Made by a program: the position numbers and the translations under genes | Assembly: GCA_009781115.1 (NCBI GenBank) | Contig: WQYT01000008.1 | Span: forward strand, 1 to 38,062 | DNA length: 38,062 nucleotides | Direction: 5' to 3' | Source: Coriobacteriia bacterium | GTDB taxonomy: Bacteria > Actinomycetota > Coriobacteriia > WRKU01 > WQUG01 | Shown: one piece after another, positions 14,373-34,261 of the stretch | How the letters are laid out: each line of letters starts with the position of its first letter | Position numbering within the stretch: the first letter of the stretch is position 1 | The notes under the pieces: model-generated | Told to the model about the DNA's origin: nothing | Seen by the model: only the letters and a program-made list of their open reading frames with translations | The model's database searches: none

Positions 14373-15197
14373 ATGAAAAAGAAATATTTCTACATAAGCA
14401 TACTGATGGTAGCGGTGCTGCTACTGGCTGCCTGTGGCAAGAAGCCAGCAGCGGCCCAGCAGGACTTGCCTCCGACTGCCTCGCAAGAGGCAACGGCGAG
14501 CGTGGTTGCGACTACGTCGCCTTCTGGCGCTGGCGATTCAAAGCAAACGCAGAAAAATGGTGGATCTCCGGCGAACACTTCCTCTAAGAAAACCTACTCG
14601 ATAACAACGGCAAAGATCTCGCAGGGTGAGATCAATATTAAGTATCCACAGATAACTGGACTGCCCGACAAAGGAAGGCAGGGAAACATTAACTCGCTTA
14701 TCAAAAGGACCATTTATAATGATGCGCTGGACGGTTACTCGGAGGCCTTGTCACAGAAACAGCTTTCGGTTGATGTGAGCTATCGTGTCATGTTGAGTAC
14801 TGATAACCTGCTGTCAATTGCCTATACGGAGGAGGCAAATGTCGAGACGGCGGCACATCCCAATGCGTCCATGATTGGTACTACTATCGACTTGAAACGC
14901 GTCAAAGTAGTAAAGCTTTCAAGCCTGGTAAGCGTTGATAAGGCCTTCGCGCAAAAACTTCTTACTTCTTCTGGCTGGACCTACCTTGGCGGTACTCCAA
15001 AAGACAATATTTTGTCACAAGAACTAAAAAATAACTATCCCACGAGCAGTGACCTGCTGGCGGATATCCAAGGCGTCAATTCAAACTTTTATCTGAAGCC
15101 CAACTCACTGGTTGTAAGCGTCGGTATCTCTCATGCAATTGGTGACTATGCGCTTGTGGAGCTGCGAGGAAACTATGCAGCTGGCTACAAAAATTGA
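14373..15197 (+). CDS. Lipoprotein with DUF4163/DUF3298 (RsiV-like) domain
   Basis: Lipobox LLAAC; ISQGEINIKYPQITGLPDKGRQGNINSLIKRT. Confidence 0.75.
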   Translation: MKKKYFYISILMVAVLLLAACGKKPAAAQQDLPPTASQEATASVVATTSPSGAGDSKQTQKNGGSPANTSSKKTYSITTAKISQGEINIKYPQITGLPDKGRQGNINSLIKRTIYNDALDGYSEALSQKQLSVDVSYRVMLSTDNLLSIAYTEEANVETAAHPNASMIGTTIDLKRVKVVKLSSLVSVDKAFAQKLLTSSGWTYLGGTPKDNILSQELKNNYPTSSDLLADIQGVNSNFYLKPNSLVVSVGISHAIGDYALVELRGNYAAGYKN

Positions 15198-15228
15198 CAG
15201 TAGTGATAGTACAGGAGGAACAGGGACT

Positions 15229-16456
15229 ATGAAAAAGATGATCGCGGTTGTAATGGCTGTCTGCCTGTTTGCGCTTGCTGGTTGCGGTGCTAAAAAAGCG
15301 CCTGCCCCTGGCGCTACCGGGCAATCGGGAGAAAGCACGCCCACTACCAGCGCCTCTGGACAGCCGGGGGAAAACTCCAGCCCAGCGCTCTCGCTACAGC
15401 AACGAAGGGCAACGGCGCTTAAAGCCCTGAGCGCGGTGGCGCTTAACAAGGCAACCTTCATTAATACTGATGTCCATAATAAAGCTATGTATCTCAAGGA
15501 TCTGACTGCGACAGATATGGGGGCTCCTGATAAGACCGTCCCTTGTAAGTTGTCCAGTTTTCAGGTTCTTGATCTGGACGGCGATGGCGTGCCTGAAGTG
15601 GTAATTGAGGTCAAGATGAAATCATCGGCATATAACGGTGAAAGCTCTGAGATTTTGCGGTATTACCAAGGGAAAGTTTATAGCTACATCTGGCTGCCTG
15701 TAAGTGGTGAGCTGGGATTGGATGGAGGCTCGTTTGCCAAAAAATGGCTTGTTCTGGACTATGGATAGCGCGCGGGAAAACACGATCTATCAGTTCCGCT
15801 TTCTGGGGACCTCTCTGTATGAATCGACTTTGATGTTTTCTGAGGCAAATAACAACTGGAAAACTATCTACTTTTATATGTATGACGTTGAGGTGTCGCC
15901 CGGTCTTTGCGGGCAGCAGATGAATAAAGCGACCGGAGCCGATGCGCCGAGCTACTCCTATTCTGAAGCCAATATAACAAAATGGATCACCAATCGGTCG
16001 GTTTCTGCAGACCCGAAACCAGCTTTATCGGATGCTGATGTGGCTGCGCGGCAAGATTACCTGGACGGCCTCATCCGGCGAGGCGCGCCAAACTATCCTG
16101 ACATATACGAATCTTCTGAAACCACGACAGCGGCAGAGGCCAAAACTCTAAGCTATTACCAGAGTTGGAACAACGAGCTTAATCGCATCTATGCCCTGCT
16201 GGAAAAGAAACTTCCGGCTGCCCAGATGGAGAAACTTCGTCAGGATGAACGAAAGTGGATGATCGTCCGTGATAAAAACGCTGCGCAGGCCAAAAAGTAC
16301 CTAAGGGGCGGCATGTTTTCTGCTAAGGCAGATAAGAATCGAGCTCTGGGTGACCTCACTCAAAATCGTACGTTCTATCTGATTAATCTCTACTTTGGTG
16401 ATAGCTCACAACCAACAACGACTGATATCGTGAACCGCTACGGCCTGAAGAAATAA
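15229..16456 (+). pseudogene. Frameshifted lipoprotein with LprI-like C-terminal domain (paralogue 1)
   Basis: ORFs 15229-15768 and 15704-16456 together align end to end with the intact neighbour 16471-17703; frame break at A6 run 15739-15744. Confidence 0.85.
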
Positions 16457-16470
16457 GGAGAGTGGTAATG

Positions 16471-17703
16471 ATGAAAAAGATGATCGCGGTTGCAATGGCT
16501 GTTTGCTTGTTTGCGCTTGCCGGTTGCGGTGCTAAAAAGACGCCCTCTGCCGGTGCGTCTGCTCCCAGTGCCGCTGCCTCCAGTGCCTCCGATGCTACTG
16601 GTCAGCCATCAAAAAAGACCAGCACGCCTGCCCCTGTGCCCTCGTTGCAGCAGCGCAGGACGGTTGCGCTCAAAGCCTTGAGCGAGGTGATGCTTAATAA
16701 GGCGATGTTTACCAATGTTGGCGATACTGCTGATAATGTTCCTACGCGAAAGCTCTATCTTAAGAACATCAGCTCTGCAGACACGGGCTGGGACGATGGG
16801 ACCCCTCAATGGCGGGTAACCAATTTTGCGGTTATTGATGTGAATCAAGATGGCGTGCCGGAAGCTGTTGCGGAGCTTTGCTCAGGACCAGATACCGTAA
16901 TTAACTTAGAGGGTTATGAGGTTCTGCATTATTACAAAAGTGAAGTCTACGGCTACTTCTTCTTTCGCTGGAATCACAGTTTTGCTAAAAACGGCCTCTC
17001 CTGGTTTAATCCTGGTGGCGTTGACAACAATGCTCTCCAGAAACTTCGCTTTTTAGGTGGTGCCGTCAATATCGCTATTTTGATGGATACCATTGATGAT
17101 GGGGGAGGCGTTCCTGTTAAGGCATATATGTACGATGTTTCGGTATCAAAGAATGCGGTTTTAGACCAGATGGGCGCTCTCACAAAGGATCAGGCTGTCT
17201 GGTACACGCCGACGGCGGCAAATATCGCGCAACAGATTACCAATCGCTCGGCTTCTGCTGACCCTGTGCCTGCGCTTTCAAACGAGAATCTGGTTGCCCG
17301 ACAGGACTATCTTGACGGGCTGGGTCAGCGTGGGCTGCTCAATTACTCCCAGACGTTTTCTGCTACGACCGCAACGCCTACCAAGGCGCAAACTGCCCAG
17401 CTTGACGCAAAGCAGCGTGCCGCAGATCTCGCCTATTACCAGAGCTGGGACGCTGAGCTTAATCGCATCTATGGCCTGCTTGAAAAGAAGCTGCCAGCCT
17501 CGCAGATGGATAGTCTTCGCCAGGACGAACATCAGTGGATGACCATCCGCGATAAAGGCGCCATGCGGGCTTATGGGTCACAGACAAAGAACTCTCTCCT
17601 CGGTGACTTCACTCAAAATCGCACCCTGTACCTGATCGATCTCTACTTTGGCGACAGCTCGCAACCCACAACGACTGATATCGTGAACCGCTACGGCCGC
17701 TAA
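16471..17703 (+). CDS. Lipoprotein with LprI-like (DUF1311) C-terminal domain (paralogue 2, intact)
   Basis: Lipobox LAGC; AYYQSWDAELNRIYGLLEKKLPASQMDSLRQDEHQWMTIRDK. Confidence 0.85.
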   Translation: MKKMIAVAMAVCLFALAGCGAKKTPSAGASAPSAAASSASDATGQPSKKTSTPAPVPSLQQRRTVALKALSEVMLNKAMFTNVGDTADNVPTRKLYLKNISSADTGWDDGTPQWRVTNFAVIDVNQDGVPEAVAELCSGPDTVINLEGYEVLHYYKSEVYGYFFFRWNHSFAKNGLSWFNPGGVDNNALQKLRFLGGAVNIAILMDTIDDGGGVPVKAYMYDVSVSKNAVLDQMGALTKDQAVWYTPTAANIAQQITNRSASADPVPALSNENLVARQDYLDGLGQRGLLNYSQTFSATTATPTKAQTAQLDAKQRAADLAYYQSWDAELNRIYGLLEKKLPASQMDSLRQDEHQWMTIRDKGAMRAYGSQTKNSLLGDFTQNRTLYLIDLYFGDSSQPTTTDIVNRYGR

Positions 17704-17704
17704 G

Positions 17705-17902
17705 CCTGCCAGGAAAACAGGTATTGAGCCTGGACTGACAGGAAGCAGGTGACCATGATGACTAAGAAAGTGAGAGGAACTTAAAGCAGCGTTGAAGTTA
17801 CTAAAGAGATGCTCAACAGGTGGGCGGATGCATTTGAGCGCGACGAGTGTCCGGAGGGAAAGACTGTCATCACAAGCCGCCCTTGGCTTGCAGCAGATGT
17901 AT
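17705..17902 (+). pseudogene. Decayed copy of the RHH antitoxin gene and toxin 3' end
   Basis: ggactgacaggaagcaggtgaccatgatgactaagaaagtgagaggaactTAA... aligns to 13405-13580; premature stop. Confidence 0.88.
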
Positions 17903-18061
17903 CTCTGGAATAAGAATGGCCAAAACCATCATATCGGTATTGTAAAGAGTGTAAGTGGCGGTATAGTCTATACGGTAGAGGGGAATGTAAGTGGTAGAGT
18001 GGCAAATCAGTCACATCCATTGGACTATGGTCGAATTGCTGGATATGGAACAGGAAACTAG
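17900..18061 (+). pseudogene. C-terminal fragment of a CHAP-type amidase domain
   Basis: YLWNKNGQNHHIGIVKSVSGGIVYTVEGNVSGRVANQSHPLDYGRIAGYGTGN*. Confidence 0.65.
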
Positions 18062-18070
18062 GTGAGTGCT

Positions 18071-18787
18071 ATGAGTAGGGTTTTGAAAGCAATGTTGGTG
18101 TTTGGTGTATTAATTGTATCCGCATGTATTCTTGTTGCCTGCGGGAATAAGGCGCCCGTAAAGGCTACGAAGGATACAACGTCAAAAGAGACGTCGATCA
18201 CAGTCAGTACGGAAACCTCAGCCAACAGTGGGACCTCATCTGGTAGTGGAGCTTCGACGGGCGCGGAGACTTCAACTGGCAGCGGAGCTTCGACGGATGG
18301 GAATGGATCAAAAAATACTGGCAGTGCAAAAAGTACAGGTTCAAAGAAAAAGATCGCCTCTTCCTCACTTCTTACCGATGAGACAACCGGTAAAGGCGCT
18401 ATTTCTTTCGGGGACTCGGTTGAAAAGGTTAAGCGAGTGCTCGCTGGTTATCAGACAGATGCTGGCTCTTCGATAGGAGATTATAATAAAACGCAGTATG
18501 GTGTATTTTTTCTTTTCGGAGATGTGAATTACGTATTTGATACCAATGGCAAGCTTATCGAATATTACAGTGGTACAGGGTGGGGGTCTTTTGAAACATC
18601 AAAGGGTCTTAAGATCGGGGATCCGATCTCAAAGGCGATTAGCCTTTATGGCAAGAAATATTCTTTCAATAAAGGAAATGAGGATGATCTCCCAAGTTAT
18701 ACGTTCACTTTTAAAGGGACTTATTTGCGAGTCGAGGTTGATCCCCAGTCAAAAGTCGATTCGATGACCTGCGGAGTCAGGCAATAG
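18071..18787 (+). CDS. Lipoprotein of a small paralogous family (1)
   Basis: Lipobox LVAC, Ser/Thr/Gly-rich linker, C-terminal domain LLTDETTGKGAISFGDSVEKVKRVLAGYQ. Confidence 0.75.
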   Translation: MSRVLKAMLVFGVLIVSACILVACGNKAPVKATKDTTSKETSITVSTETSANSGTSSGSGASTGAETSTGSGASTDGNGSKNTGSAKSTGSKKKIASSSLLTDETTGKGAISFGDSVEKVKRVLAGYQTDAGSSIGDYNKTQYGVFFLFGDVNYVFDTNGKLIEYYSGTGWGSFETSKGLKIGDPISKAISLYGKKYSFNKGNEDDLPSYTFTFKGTYLRVEVDPQSKVDSMTCGVRQ

Positions 18788-18874
18788 TGCTTTTGGTTTA
18801 AAAGAAAAAAAGATAAATCGAGATTTTGCGCGGGAATCTGTAATTGATTATATTCTTATTCGAAGGAGACGTTT

Positions 18875-19609
18875 ATGAAGCTAAAAATTATTTTGCCAAC
18901 CATACTGTTAATAGTATGGCTTGCTGTGGCTGGTTGCAGCAGTAGCTGTTCCTCGAAGACACCAAATAGCACAGCTCAAAATAGTACCGAGACAACAACT
19001 ACCGCAAGTAAGGAAACAACTCCCTCTCTGGAAGCTTCAGACGGGGCAAAGGCAGCAGCAGCGACGGGCGAAAAAGAGAAGCCATCTCAAAATGCGCAAA
19101 AAGAGGATTCATCAAACACAAAGTCTAATTCAAATACTACGGTTCAGCCAAAAAAGAAAACGAAATTGGTTTCAGCATCGCAGCTTACTGATGAGAAAAC
19201 CGGCAAAGGCGAGATTTCTATGGGCGATACGCTTAAGCAGGTTAAAGCAGTCTTAGCGAAATACCAATTTGCAAACAGCAAGATTACTTACTATCCTCCA
19301 TCGAATGGTGGTCCGTCGCAATATTGGATAGGTACTACCGCTTACTTATTTGACGAAAAGGGAAAGCTTGCTGGCATTATGAGCGCCACGGGTGCCGGTT
19401 TTGCTTTTGAAACCTCGCGCGGATTGAAGCTTGGGGATACAGTAGCAAAAATGAAATCAATCTATGGTACCAAGTATAAGTACACAGACGGATCAGCAGA
19501 TCACACTCTTTCCAATTACGTCTATACCTTTAACGGAAGGGATGTTATGTTTCAAATTGAGCCAAATGCTAAAGGCGATAAAGCTTTGATATGGGAGATT
19601 GATTTTTGA
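18875..19609 (+). CDS. Lipoprotein of the same family (2)
   Basis: Lipobox VAGC; QLTDEKTGKGEISMGDTLKQVKAVLAKYQ. Confidence 0.75.
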   Translation: MKLKIILPTILLIVWLAVAGCSSSCSSKTPNSTAQNSTETTTTASKETTPSLEASDGAKAAAATGEKEKPSQNAQKEDSSNTKSNSNTTVQPKKKTKLVSASQLTDEKTGKGEISMGDTLKQVKAVLAKYQFANSKITYYPPSNGGPSQYWIGTTAYLFDEKGKLAGIMSATGAGFAFETSRGLKLGDTVAKMKSIYGTKYKYTDGSADHTLSNYVYTFNGRDVMFQIEPNAKGDKALIWEIDF

Positions 19610-19894: not shown

Positions 19895-20009
19895 AACGGA
19901 AGGATAGCCATGAAGTTATTTTGGATTAGAGCGCCTGATGTCTTTCTGTCGGAGCGTGCGATTAGATAATAAACTGCTTCTGGTTCATTTTCTAATCACT
20001 GACAGATGG

Positions 20010-21113
20010 TTATTGCTTTGTGAGCAGGTACTCGTGCAGGTAGGGTGGGGCGAAGGCCAATTTGCCGTGGGCGACGGCTTTGACCATGCCGGCTATCAGG
20101 AGTCGCTCGCGATACTTTGAGGCGTAGCCAGCAGACACGCCGCCCAGGCGCTCCCTGATGGCGCCAAATTCGCTTACGCCTTCATCTTGAGTCATGGCAA
20201 AAAGGAAGTTGCGGTCCTCTGCTGAGAGCGCCTGGAAAAGCATGTCGTGGACATTCTTGAAAAGCTCGATCTTTGCCAGGTCAAGCGATTGTTGGACAAG
20301 CTTGCCGTCGATGGCCTCCGCATCACTCCTAAAAAGAAAGTATCCCAAAAGCTGGATCAGGTAGGGATAGCCTTCCGTTGCCGTTGCTGCTGAACGCAAC
20401 GCAGTTCCGGAGAACGTGCGTCCAGCCTGGCTGAAGGCCTGGTCAAAGGCGATCTCGACAGCTTTGGTGTCAATGCTTTCAAGCTCGACCCGGTAAGCGC
20501 GACGCAGGAAAGTCAGGACCTCATTGTTTAAGATGTCATTGACTGAACTGGGCAGGCCGGCCATGAGCAAGGCCACGTCGTATTCTTCACGCAGCAGATG
20601 CTGGTAAGTGACGGCGAACTCCCGCATATCCGGTGTTCCGTTGTGAACTTCATCGATCAGGAATACCGTTTTAATGCCTTTGTGCTTCAGCTCGTTCAGC
20701 ATGCTTGATAGCATGAACCTGAATCCATGGACTTCTTTATCAGCCTTCTTTGTTAAACCCAGTGAGAACCCCAAAGCTCCAGCGGAAAAACCCTGCACTT
20801 CATTAAAAGCTTTGCCCAGCCAGTTCTTGCCTGTGTTGCACCGGATAAACTCGTCAAGAATCTCAAGAAGCATCCCGTCATGTGCCGTAACGTCGATTAC
20901 TACCTGTTTGCTGGAGTCAAGGCTTGCATGAACATCAGAGAGAATAGCCGTTTTGCCTGAGCCCCTGATTCCGGTGATGATCGTGGTCCTGTGGGGATCA
21001 TAGGGGTCTGTCAGGCTTTGCAGGAAGTCGTTGATTATCAGTTCGCGCCCGATGAACTGCTTGGGGCGCCGCCCAAACTGGGGGTTAAAGGGGTTTGTTT
21101 TGTAAGTGGTCAT
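20010..21113 (-). CDS. AAA-family ATPase with C-terminal winged-helix-like region
   Basis: Walker A GIRGSGKTA; Walker B KTVFLIDEVHNG; C-terminal ERLGGVSAGYASKYRERLLIAGMV. Confidence 0.88.
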   Translation of the reverse strand: MTTYKTNPFNPQFGRRPKQFIGRELIINDFLQSLTDPYDPHRTTIITGIRGSGKTAILSDVHASLDSSKQVVIDVTAHDGMLLEILDEFIRCNTGKNWLGKAFNEVQGFSAGALGFSLGLTKKADKEVHGFRFMLSSMLNELKHKGIKTVFLIDEVHNGTPDMREFAVTYQHLLREEYDVALLMAGLPSSVNDILNNEVLTFLRRAYRVELESIDTKAVEIAFDQAFSQAGRTFSGTALRSAATATEGYPYLIQLLGYFLFRSDAEAIDGKLVQQSLDLAKIELFKNVHDMLFQALSAEDRNFLFAMTQDEGVSEFGAIRERLGGVSAGYASKYRERLLIAGMVKAVAHGKLAFAPPYLHEYLLTKQ

Positions 21114-21133
21114 TCTTCTGCGGCTCCTGGTGT

Positions 21134-21221
21134 TTTCGTATTTCAGAATTACTTTCGTATTTTACCATAGGGTTTCGTATTTCAGAATTTGTTTCGTATT
21201 TGGGTAGTGGCTTTCGTATTT
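21134..21221. repeat. Five-copy iteron-like array of TTTCGTATTT (revcomp AAATACGAAA)
   Basis: Copies at 21134, 21153, 21173, 21192, 21212; spacing 19/20/19/20 bp. Confidence 0.9.
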
Positions 21222-21264: not shown

Positions 21265-21310
21265 CGCAAAAAAGATTCCGCCACCGGGCTCTGCTGGTGG
21301 CGGAATTTTT
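21265..21310. terminator. Bidirectional terminator downstream of arcA
   Basis: aaaaaagattccgccacc...ggtggcggaattttt. Confidence 0.7.
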
Positions 21311-21377: not shown

Positions 21378-22649
21378 CTAGGCGTCGCGCTGCAGGGGGC
21401 AGGCCATGGCGTGAGCGCCGCCGCGTCCGCGACCGAGCTCGGCCGAGGGCAGCTCGATGACTTCGATGCCGGCGCGCGTCAGCTCGGCGTTGATGTGCGT
21501 GTTGCGGTCGTAGGCGATGACCACGCCGGGCTCAAGGGCCAGGAGGTTGTTGCCGCTGTCCCACTGCTGGCGCTCACTCTCATAGCGGTCGGGACCGTTG
21601 TCGATGACCTGCAGGTCCGCAACGTCAAGCGCGCCAGCGACCACCTCCAGAAACGGCATGGTTTCCCGCACAACCCTGATCTCGCCGGAGCGATCCTCGG
21701 GATGCAGAGAAAAAGTCTCAATGCTGTCCACGATGGGACGGTAGGCGCAGGCGATGTCGCGCTCTGCCAGCGTGAACACGGCGTCGAGGTGCATCGCCGC
21801 GCGCGTCTTGGGCAGGTTTGCCACGATCACGCGGTCTGCGGCGCCCTGCGCAAACAGCGACCGTGCCACCTGCATGATGGCCTGGCACGAGGTCCGCGCG
21901 CTCAGGCCGATCGTGACGGTGCGATTGCCCGTGACCAGGATGTCGCCGCCCTCGACGGTCGCCTTGCCCCAGTGCTGCTCCGGATCGCCCCAGTAGGTGG
22001 TGATCTTTGCCTCCGTAAACGCGGGGTGGAACTGATAGATTGCCTTCATGAGCAAGGTCTCGCCGTGGCGCGCATGCCTCTGGAGCGGGTTCATGAACAT
22101 GCCATCATAGGCCCAGGCGGTGGTGTCGCGCGCATAAAGCATATTGGGGAGCGGATCGATCAGGTACTCGTTTTCGCCCGGGGTCGGGCGGATCATGCCC
22201 ATGGCGTTGCTGCGGTAACCCTGCGGGAGGTCGTCGACCGACAGGCCGCCAATCAGGTAGGTCGCCAGTGTTGGGGCGTCAAAGGTATTCAGGTCGCGGT
22301 GCACGCTCTCCGCAAAGCCGAGGCCGACATTGTTGACGGTGATGACGCGGTCAAGCAGCCAGTTACGGGCGTCGGGCACAAGCAGGGTTTCGCTCAGCAG
22401 CTGGTGTAGCTCAAGGACCTCAATGCCGCGGGAGGTCATCTCGGCGACGAACTGCGCGTGATCGCGCTTGGCCTGCTCGACCCAGGGCAGCTCATCAAAA
22501 AGCAGCACGCGGGCGTTGGTGGGAGTCAGGCGGGTCTGGGCAAGCCCCGGTGCGCACACGAGTACGCGGCGGAGCTTGCCGACCTCAGAATAAACGCCAA
22601 ACTGCGCGGATGTTTGAGTTGGGGTCAGTGTCGGTGTGGTCGAGGTCAT
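21378..22649 (-). CDS. arcA: Arginine deiminase homologue
   Basis: PNMLYARDTTAW, EGGDILVTGN, MHLDAVFT, ELGRGRGGAHAMACPLQRDA. Confidence 0.93.
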   Translation of the reverse strand: MTSTTPTLTPTQTSAQFGVYSEVGKLRRVLVCAPGLAQTRLTPTNARVLLFDELPWVEQAKRDHAQFVAEMTSRGIEVLELHQLLSETLLVPDARNWLLDRVITVNNVGLGFAESVHRDLNTFDAPTLATYLIGGLSVDDLPQGYRSNAMGMIRPTPGENEYLIDPLPNMLYARDTTAWAYDGMFMNPLQRHARHGETLLMKAIYQFHPAFTEAKITTYWGDPEQHWGKATVEGGDILVTGNRTVTIGLSARTSCQAIMQVARSLFAQGAADRVIVANLPKTRAAMHLDAVFTLAERDIACAYRPIVDSIETFSLHPEDRSGEIRVVRETMPFLEVVAGALDVADLQVIDNGPDRYESERQQWDSGNNLLALEPGVVIAYDRNTHINAELTRAGIEVIELPSAELGRGRGGAHAMACPLQRDA

Positions 22650-22671
22650 AAAGGTTCCTTTCTGGGGCCGG

Positions 22672-22702
22672 TGACAAAATTACCCCTGGGGTAGTTTTGT
22701 CA
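22672..22702. repeat. Short palindromic element tgacaaaattacccctggggtagttttgtca
   Basis: One mismatch in the palindrome; family with 24806, 25628, 34063, 34231. Confidence 0.8.
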
Positions 22703-22763
22703 GGGGGAGACAGGAGAACCGTCCCCTTGTCTCTCCAGGTTGTGGTTTCAGTTGGCAATAAAC

Positions 22764-22803
22764 CGGGCGGATGGCTCCGGTTTCGGGCGGATGGCTCCGG
22801 TTT
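22764..22803. repeat. Two tandem 20-bp repeats cgggcggatggctccggttt
   Basis: Perfect tandem copies. Confidence 0.9.
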
Positions 22804-24869: not shown

Positions 24870-25682
24870 GTGGACGCAGCAACGGCAACGGTAACAACGG
24901 CAACAACGGCAACAACAGCGGCGGCAAAGCGGATATATATCGCTGATGACGAGACTAATATCAGGGAGGCGATCCAGACCTTCCTGGAAAACGATGGCTA
25001 CGAGGTCTGCGCGTTTGCGACCGGCGATGCGCTGCTTGAGCAGTTCCAGGCCGACCCCGCCGATCTCTGCATCCTTGACGTGATGATGCCCGGCTCCAAT
25101 GGCTTTACCATCTGCAAGGAGATCCGCAAGATCAGCACCGTCCCCATCATCATGCTGACCGCGCGTGACAGCGACCTCGACTATGCCACAGGCCTCAGCC
25201 TGGGAAGCGACGACTACTTTACGAAGCCGTTTTCTGCGATGGCGCTGGTCATGCGCGTCAAGGCGATCTTTCGTCGCATTGAGTTTGACACGGCGCAGGC
25301 GGCGGCCAGCGCGCGTGTTCGTCCTCAGCCGCAGACGCTCGGCGACCTGATGGTGGACCCGGGCAACAAGACAGCTGAGGTCAAGGGCAGGCAGATCGAT
25401 CTGACCCCCAACGAGTTCAATCTGCTCTGCTACCTGATGGAAAACTCAGAGGCGGCGATCTCTCGCGCGGAGCTTCTTGAGAGCCTCTGGGGTTTTGGCA
25501 GCGAGGTCGAGACCCGCGCGGTTGACGACACCGTGCGCCGCCTGCGCAAGAAGATCGCAGGCAGCACCGTGAGTGTTGACACCGTGTGGGGCTACGGCTT
25601 CCGGCTTAAAGTGAAAGATGCGCCGCATGACAAAATTACCCCAGGGGTAATTTTGTCAGAAGAAGAGGCTGACCATGCCTAG
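24870..25682 (+). CDS. OmpR-family response regulator
   Basis: Receiver domain YIADDE..CILDVMMPGSNGF, winged helix ...DTVWGYGFRLK. Confidence 0.93.
   Translation: MDAATATVTTATTATTAAAKRIYIADDETNIREAIQTFLENDGYEVCAFATGDALLEQFQADPADLCILDVMMPGSNGFTICKEIRKISTVPIIMLTARDSDLDYATGLSLGSDDYFTKPFSAMALVMRVKAIFRRIEFDTAQAAASARVRPQPQTLGDLMVDPGNKTAEVKGRQIDLTPNEFNLLCYLMENSEAAISRAELLESLWGFGSEVETRAVDDTVRRLRKKIAGSTVSVDTVWGYGFRLKVKDAPHDKITPGVILSEEEADHA
25628..25658. repeat. Perfect short palindromic element inside the response-regulator CDS
   Basis: tgacaaaattaccccaggggtaattttgtca. Confidence 0.95.
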
Positions 25683-26778: not shown

Positions 26779-26844
26779 GACAGGGGGACGGTTCTCTTGT
26801 CTCATGCGCGCATGAGACAAGAGAACCGTCCCCCTGTCTCATTG
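26773..26844. repeat. Perfect 72-bp palindrome, no spacer
   Basis: caatgagacagggggacggttctcttgtctcatgcg and its exact reverse complement. Confidence 0.95.
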
Positions 26845-27865: not shown

Positions 27866-27947
27866 TGTGTCAGTGAGACAGGGGGACGGTTCTCTTGTCT
27901 CATGCGCGCATGAGACAAGAGAACCGTCCCCCTGTCTCACTGACACA
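27866..27947. repeat. Perfect 82-bp palindrome, no spacer
   Basis: tgtgtcagtgagacagggggacggttctcttgtctcatgcg and its exact reverse complement. Confidence 0.95.
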
Positions 27948-34062: not shown

Positions 34063-34097
34063 GCTGACAGAATTACCCCAGGGGTAATTCTGTCAGC
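34063..34097. repeat. Perfect short palindromic element
   Basis: gctgacagaattaccccaggggtaattctgtcagc. Confidence 0.95.
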
Positions 34098-34230: not shown

Positions 34231-34261
34231 TGACAGAATTACCCCTGGGGTAATTCTGTCA
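34231..34261. repeat. Perfect short palindrome bracketed by 19-bp direct repeats
   Basis: ctgacacacccctgacaca at 34212-34230 and 34262-34280 directly abut the palindrome. Confidence 0.95.

Follow-up and report, generated by a model that had tools for sequence, protein, structure and literature searches.

The analyzed window, a stretch of 38,062 nucleotides from a Coriobacteriia draft genome, carries on its minus strand one uninterrupted open reading frame (ORF) of 423 amino acids that runs from an ATG start to its stop codon and ends in ...ELGRGRGGAHAMACPLQRDA* (an end also given as GRGRGGAHAMACPLQRDA). The product belongs to the ArcA-type arginine deiminases (ADI). It matches the family model PF02274 with 389.7 bits (cut-off 22.8, E-value 1.8e-116) and the NCBIfam subfamily model NF002381 with 489.6 bits, above the cut-off of 414. 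Against the TIGR01078 equivalog model (cut-off 489.1 bits) it scores only 435.1 bits; this score does not separate it from its Cys-bearing orthologue in the Coriobacteriia MAG Lab288P4bin85 (L034), the closest named relative, since the latter also falls below the cut-off with 463.2 bits.

The closest solved structures are those of the Pseudomonas aeruginosa ADI (1RXX and 2A9G), an enzyme that is approximately 50% identical to the window protein in the structural alignment. The AlphaFold2 model has a confident ADI fold (pTM 0.88), with TM scores of 0.85-0.88 against these two nearest structures. Model confidence in the nucleophile loop was lower for the window protein than for the orthologue (block means of 56 vs 68); as a sign of damage this is weak, because the intact orthologue dips there too. 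Judged by its sequence and predicted fold, the ORF is a full-length arginine deiminase of the family. Signals resembling a ribosome-binding site and a terminator flank the gene (Table 1), and a crude scan picked up no sigma-70-like promoter upstream of it. The search of a plasmid collection gave five listed matches, all at most 53% identical, and one further record in the 60-80% band.

Table 1. Features of the arcA locus, in window coordinates; residues of the P. aeruginosa enzyme are marked Pa
Feature	Position	Strand	Basis or comparison
ArcA-type ADI ORF without the catalytic Cys	21378..22649	-	PF02274, NF002381, predicted fold
Ala414 (GCC), aligned with the nucleophile Pa Cys406	21408..21410	-	HMMER alignment, 110 ADIs
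Nucleophile loop changed from G-H-C-M-T to A-H-A-M-A, residues 412-416	21402..21416	-	sequence comparison
Thr to Ala173 (Pa T164), two residues from catalytic Asp166	22131..22133	-	Thr in 110/110 others
Trp to Arg191 (Pa 182), three positions ahead of substrate Arg185	22077..22079	-	Trp in 79/79 subfamily members and the orthologue
Glu to Ala251 (Pa E242), adjoining substrate Arg243	21897..21899	-	Glu or Gln in 110/110 others
Arg to Cys255 (Pa 246)	21885..21887	-	Arg in 79/79 subfamily members and the orthologue
Thr to Ala290 (Pa T281), adjoining catalytic Asp280	21780..21782	-	Thr in 110/110 others
Ribosome-binding-site-like AAAGGAA, intact, 5 bases upstream of the ATG	22655..22661	-	read from the sequence
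Terminator-like 15-bp inverted repeat with flanking A and T tracts, downstream of arcA	21271..21310		
AAA-type ATPase ORF adjoining arcA	20010..21113	-	ends conserved beside arcA in the orthologous locus, gene body missing there
Repeat elements in place of the orthologue's arcD	22673..22803		repeat search
Palindrome	22673-22701; further copies 25629-25657, 34066-34094, 34232-34260		
20-bp tandem repeat upstream of arcA	22764-22803		

Nucleophile position and active-site residues

In its C-terminal G-[HR]-C-M motif, the window protein lacks the catalytic Cys. The initial annotation had placed an Ala codon there, and both its coordinates and the codon proved exact. Position 406 (P. aeruginosa numbering, used below unless stated otherwise) was compared across an alignment of 110 other ADIs, which represent both major types, and is Cys in all 110, the orthologue included. 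In the HMMER alignment with the solved structures, Ala414 pairs with the Cys of wild-type 1RXX and with the Ala of the engineered C406A protein in 2A9G. No gap interrupts the latter alignment across the motif, which discounts a frameshift or a misaligned C-terminus as the cause of the missing Cys. The orthologue has the intact motif GGGHCMTCP, and its loop codons GGC, TGC and ACC are replaced in the window by GCT, GCC and GCC; with three codons differing, a single base-call error, already thought unlikely in the annotation, is no explanation.

We scanned 398 genomes of the phylum with the codon at position 406 left free and recovered 31 clear ADI motifs with Cys, as well as the window with Ala. 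Among 11 other non-Cys matches, none of the five inspected was an ADI and the remaining six look like chance matches; the window is the only match in these genomes recognised as an ADI with a residue other than Cys at this position. It was also the sole match when the Ala form alone was sought. No second Cys-less ADI was found in the 110-ADI alignment or in the pattern scans of the 398 genomes, and the literature searched yielded no naturally occurring pseudo-ADI of ArcA type.

Equivalents of D166, R185, E224, D227, R243, H278, D280, R401 and H405 are all kept. The catalytic positions besides 406 are those established for the P. aeruginosa enzyme, and the titles of the D166A, H278A, D280A and C406A structures agree with them. 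The EGGD and MHLD motifs, which had been described as looking intact, are both present, but the residue immediately after MHLD is altered (T281A).

This change is one of 12 departures of the window protein at 155 near-invariant positions, defined from 79 relatives of the same subfamily with the orthologue required to agree: T161M, T164A, W182R, G234R, E242A, R246C, T281A, F285L, D287E, G404A, C406A and T408A. Approximately 3.9 departures would be expected from the branch length (Poisson p 7e-4, a rough value since the lineages are overdispersed). The radical changes among them include W>R, R>C and G>R. On its own, G404A is tolerated, since it also occurs in an ADI with an intact Cys (L053). 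Of the 12 departures, nine are no more than three residues away from a catalytic or substrate-binding position, compared with 41 of the 155 in the background (p 3.5e-4), and the proportion is six of nine after exclusion of the whole nucleophile loop (p 0.0025). Such clustering near the active site favours a reading in which the constraint on catalysis was selectively released while the predicted fold was retained.

The protein resembles P. aeruginosa ArcA (1RXX; NF002381/PRK01388) in its full-length fold and in most substrate ligands and general-base residues, and is unlike it in lacking Cys406 and in carrying T164A, E242A, T281A and other changes. It shares Ala at the nucleophile position, and a Cys downstream of it, with the engineered C406A protein of 2A9G, described as an inactive mutant with L-arginine bound (PMC11659421); that mutant has one engineered change, whereas several further natural changes surround the active site of the window protein. 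As a natural counterpart of this textbook mutant, the protein would show where in the sequence an ADI drifts after losing its catalysis. With its fold apparently kept and its catalytic motif lost, it is also similar to pseudoenzymes in general (PMC10211241). The proposal of a non-deiminating protein is strongly supported by inference, as the nucleophile and part of the surrounding network are gone. Given the known chemistry of Cys406, arginine deimination would be lost, and this ADI copy is almost certainly either dead or repurposed, not a working enzyme. Annotation by homology to PF02274 or NF002381 would nevertheless label it a working arginine deiminase, which calls for caution.

Orthologous locus and pathway context

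The window protein and the orthologue are 79% identical over their whole length. The Lab288 code of the MAG refers to the termite Labiotermes labralis (PMC7024585). Downstream of arcA, the ends of the ATPase gene are common to both genomes, indicating that the locus is orthologous. Upstream the two differ: in the MAG, an arginine/ornithine-antiporter-like (ArcD-like) gene ends 30 bp before arcA, whereas the window has repeat elements in its place and no arcD remnant was found upstream of its arcA by tblastx or blastn.

The genome of the window is assembled in 128 contigs and is 87.5% complete. It contains one PF02274 match; we considered a second functional ADI and found this single match only, which at such completeness is no proof of its absence. 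As the annotation had stated, neither arcB nor arcC adjoins arcA. The carbamate kinase gene arcC is located on another contig (G000:C82), and no match to arcB (OTCase) or to the arcD antiporter was found in this incomplete assembly. A near relative (G001) has three ADIs, one of them encoded in a canonical arcA-arcB-arcD cluster that directly follows pheT. Since pheT is absent from the incomplete window assembly as well, comparison of the flanks does not decide on a clean loss, and we make no claim that the canonical cluster has been lost. If that cluster is present in the genome, redundancy would explain the dispensability of the accessory copy.

Rates of change and competing explanations

The branch leading to the window protein is longer than that of the orthologue (0.157 vs 0.092), and dN/dS between the two is approximately 0.18. 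As controls we took further genes shared by these two genomes and obtained 0.08 for arcC, 0.08 for alr and 0.13 for an IMPDH-like gene; pairwise dN/dS between actinobacterial ADIs was uninformative as a control due to saturation and GC bias. In the last 70 codons the ratio is 0.06 despite the three loop changes. One-sided departures from the consensus number 28 in the window protein vs 17 in the orthologue, an excess that is weak overall. The intact ORF and the ribosome-binding-site-like and terminator-like signals, together with a dN/dS of 0.18, indicate that the gene is not an old pseudogene. By a rough calculation, in which indels were assumed to make up 5-10% of substitutions, approximately 47 neutral hits (as estimated from the excess branch length) would leave no stop or frameshift with a chance of 0.3-3%. 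The dN/dS value may mostly cover the time before the loss of catalysis. In a separate observation, the IMPDH-like orthologue in G001 (L148, G001:C23:10208-11770) is reported with one in-frame TAG, which may reflect either misassembly or a genuine stop codon.

The loss would be either recent or followed by retention in a non-catalytic role. Moonlighting, as suggested in the initial annotation, is one of two live readings of the sequence, and simple loss of an accessory enzyme is the other. As only one genome shows the dead state, we rank recent loss first, and with moderate confidence favour an accessory ADI that was inactivated recently and has come under relaxed selection. Its ancestor would be an accessory arcD-arcA pair, of the kind still intact in the closest sequenced relative, the termite-gut MAG. 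In the lineage of the window the antiporter partner, which is missing here, would have been lost and repeat elements would have taken its place; selection on catalysis would then have lapsed, followed by substitution of the nucleophilic Cys and of several invariant residues around it, with a product of ADI fold presumably unable to deiminate arginine. We infer this order of events, and likewise that the loss was recent and not adaptive. The longer branch, the dN/dS above that of the control genes and the lost gene context support recent decay, while the intact frame and signals and a dN/dS far below 1 argue against old decay. Clustering of the changes at the active site is not predicted by plain neutral decay, and counts against this explanation.

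The same clustering, in a fold predicted with good confidence, is in line with the main alternative, a retained pseudo-deiminase that would act without catalysis as an arginine-binding regulator, buffer or oligomer partner, a possibility that we consider rather unlikely. Such a protein would keep the fold together with some of the residues that bind arginine, and the frame, the expression-related signals, the low ratio in the last 70 codons and the kept equivalents of R185, E224, D227, R243, H278, D280, R401 and H405 are consistent with it, as is the unreacted L-arginine held in the C406A crystal. However, E242A, W182R and T281A are near the substrate pocket and may damage arginine binding, there is no conserved partner gene beside arcA, and with no second Cys-less member found, conservation of the dead state cannot be shown. 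Still more doubtful is the specific proposal of a naturally evolved, selectively maintained non-catalytic ADI that binds arginine and serves a gut lineage of Coriobacteriia as a sensor or regulatory partner. To our knowledge, a selectively maintained pseudo-deiminase would be the first in the ArcA family, and with it this well-studied group of enzymes would gain a branch that binds arginine without catalysis.

It is highly improbable that the enzyme remains active through another nucleophile or has acquired a different chemistry. The general-base residues are present, as is Cys417, the residue three positions after Ala414 that had been proposed as a substitute; however, its counterpart Cys409 is kept in the inactive C406A mutant, which makes it no plausible nucleophile, 28 of the 110 ADIs have Met or Gln at position 409 alongside a normal Cys406, and the surrounding active-site network is altered too. 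A sequencing or assembly artefact, or a strain chimera, might be suspected in so fragmented and incomplete a draft assembly, but is scarcely credible given 12 separate private amino-acid changes spread across more than 700 bases of open frame, with two-base codon changes at two loop positions.

Repeats and neighbouring ORFs

The palindromic element GACAAAATTACCCC and its reverse complement (approximately 29 bp) occur at intergenic and gene-end sites of the window in numbers far above those in shuffled sequences, and may represent a genome-wide repeat. Another element, GGGGACGGTTCTCT, is found in two inverted pairs (26784-26833 and 27882-27931), located just past the ends of a histidine-kinase-like ORF and an amidohydrolase ORF, and is related to GGGGACGGTTCTCC at 22713-22726. 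In the orthologous locus (L034, 7340-7422), only the last few codons of the AAA ATPase gene are left, next to copies of a TTTCGTATTTCAGAAT-type repeat; the corresponding window region is 20004-21202, and in the window this repeat has two tandem copies (21134-21211). The loss of the ATPase gene in that genome looks like a repeat-mediated deletion. Further from arcA, a run of lipoprotein-like ORFs (15133-19609) includes two pairs, one at 15133 and 16462 and the other at 18062 and 18875; similar N-termini and similar C-terminal parts within each pair give them the look of tandem paralogues.
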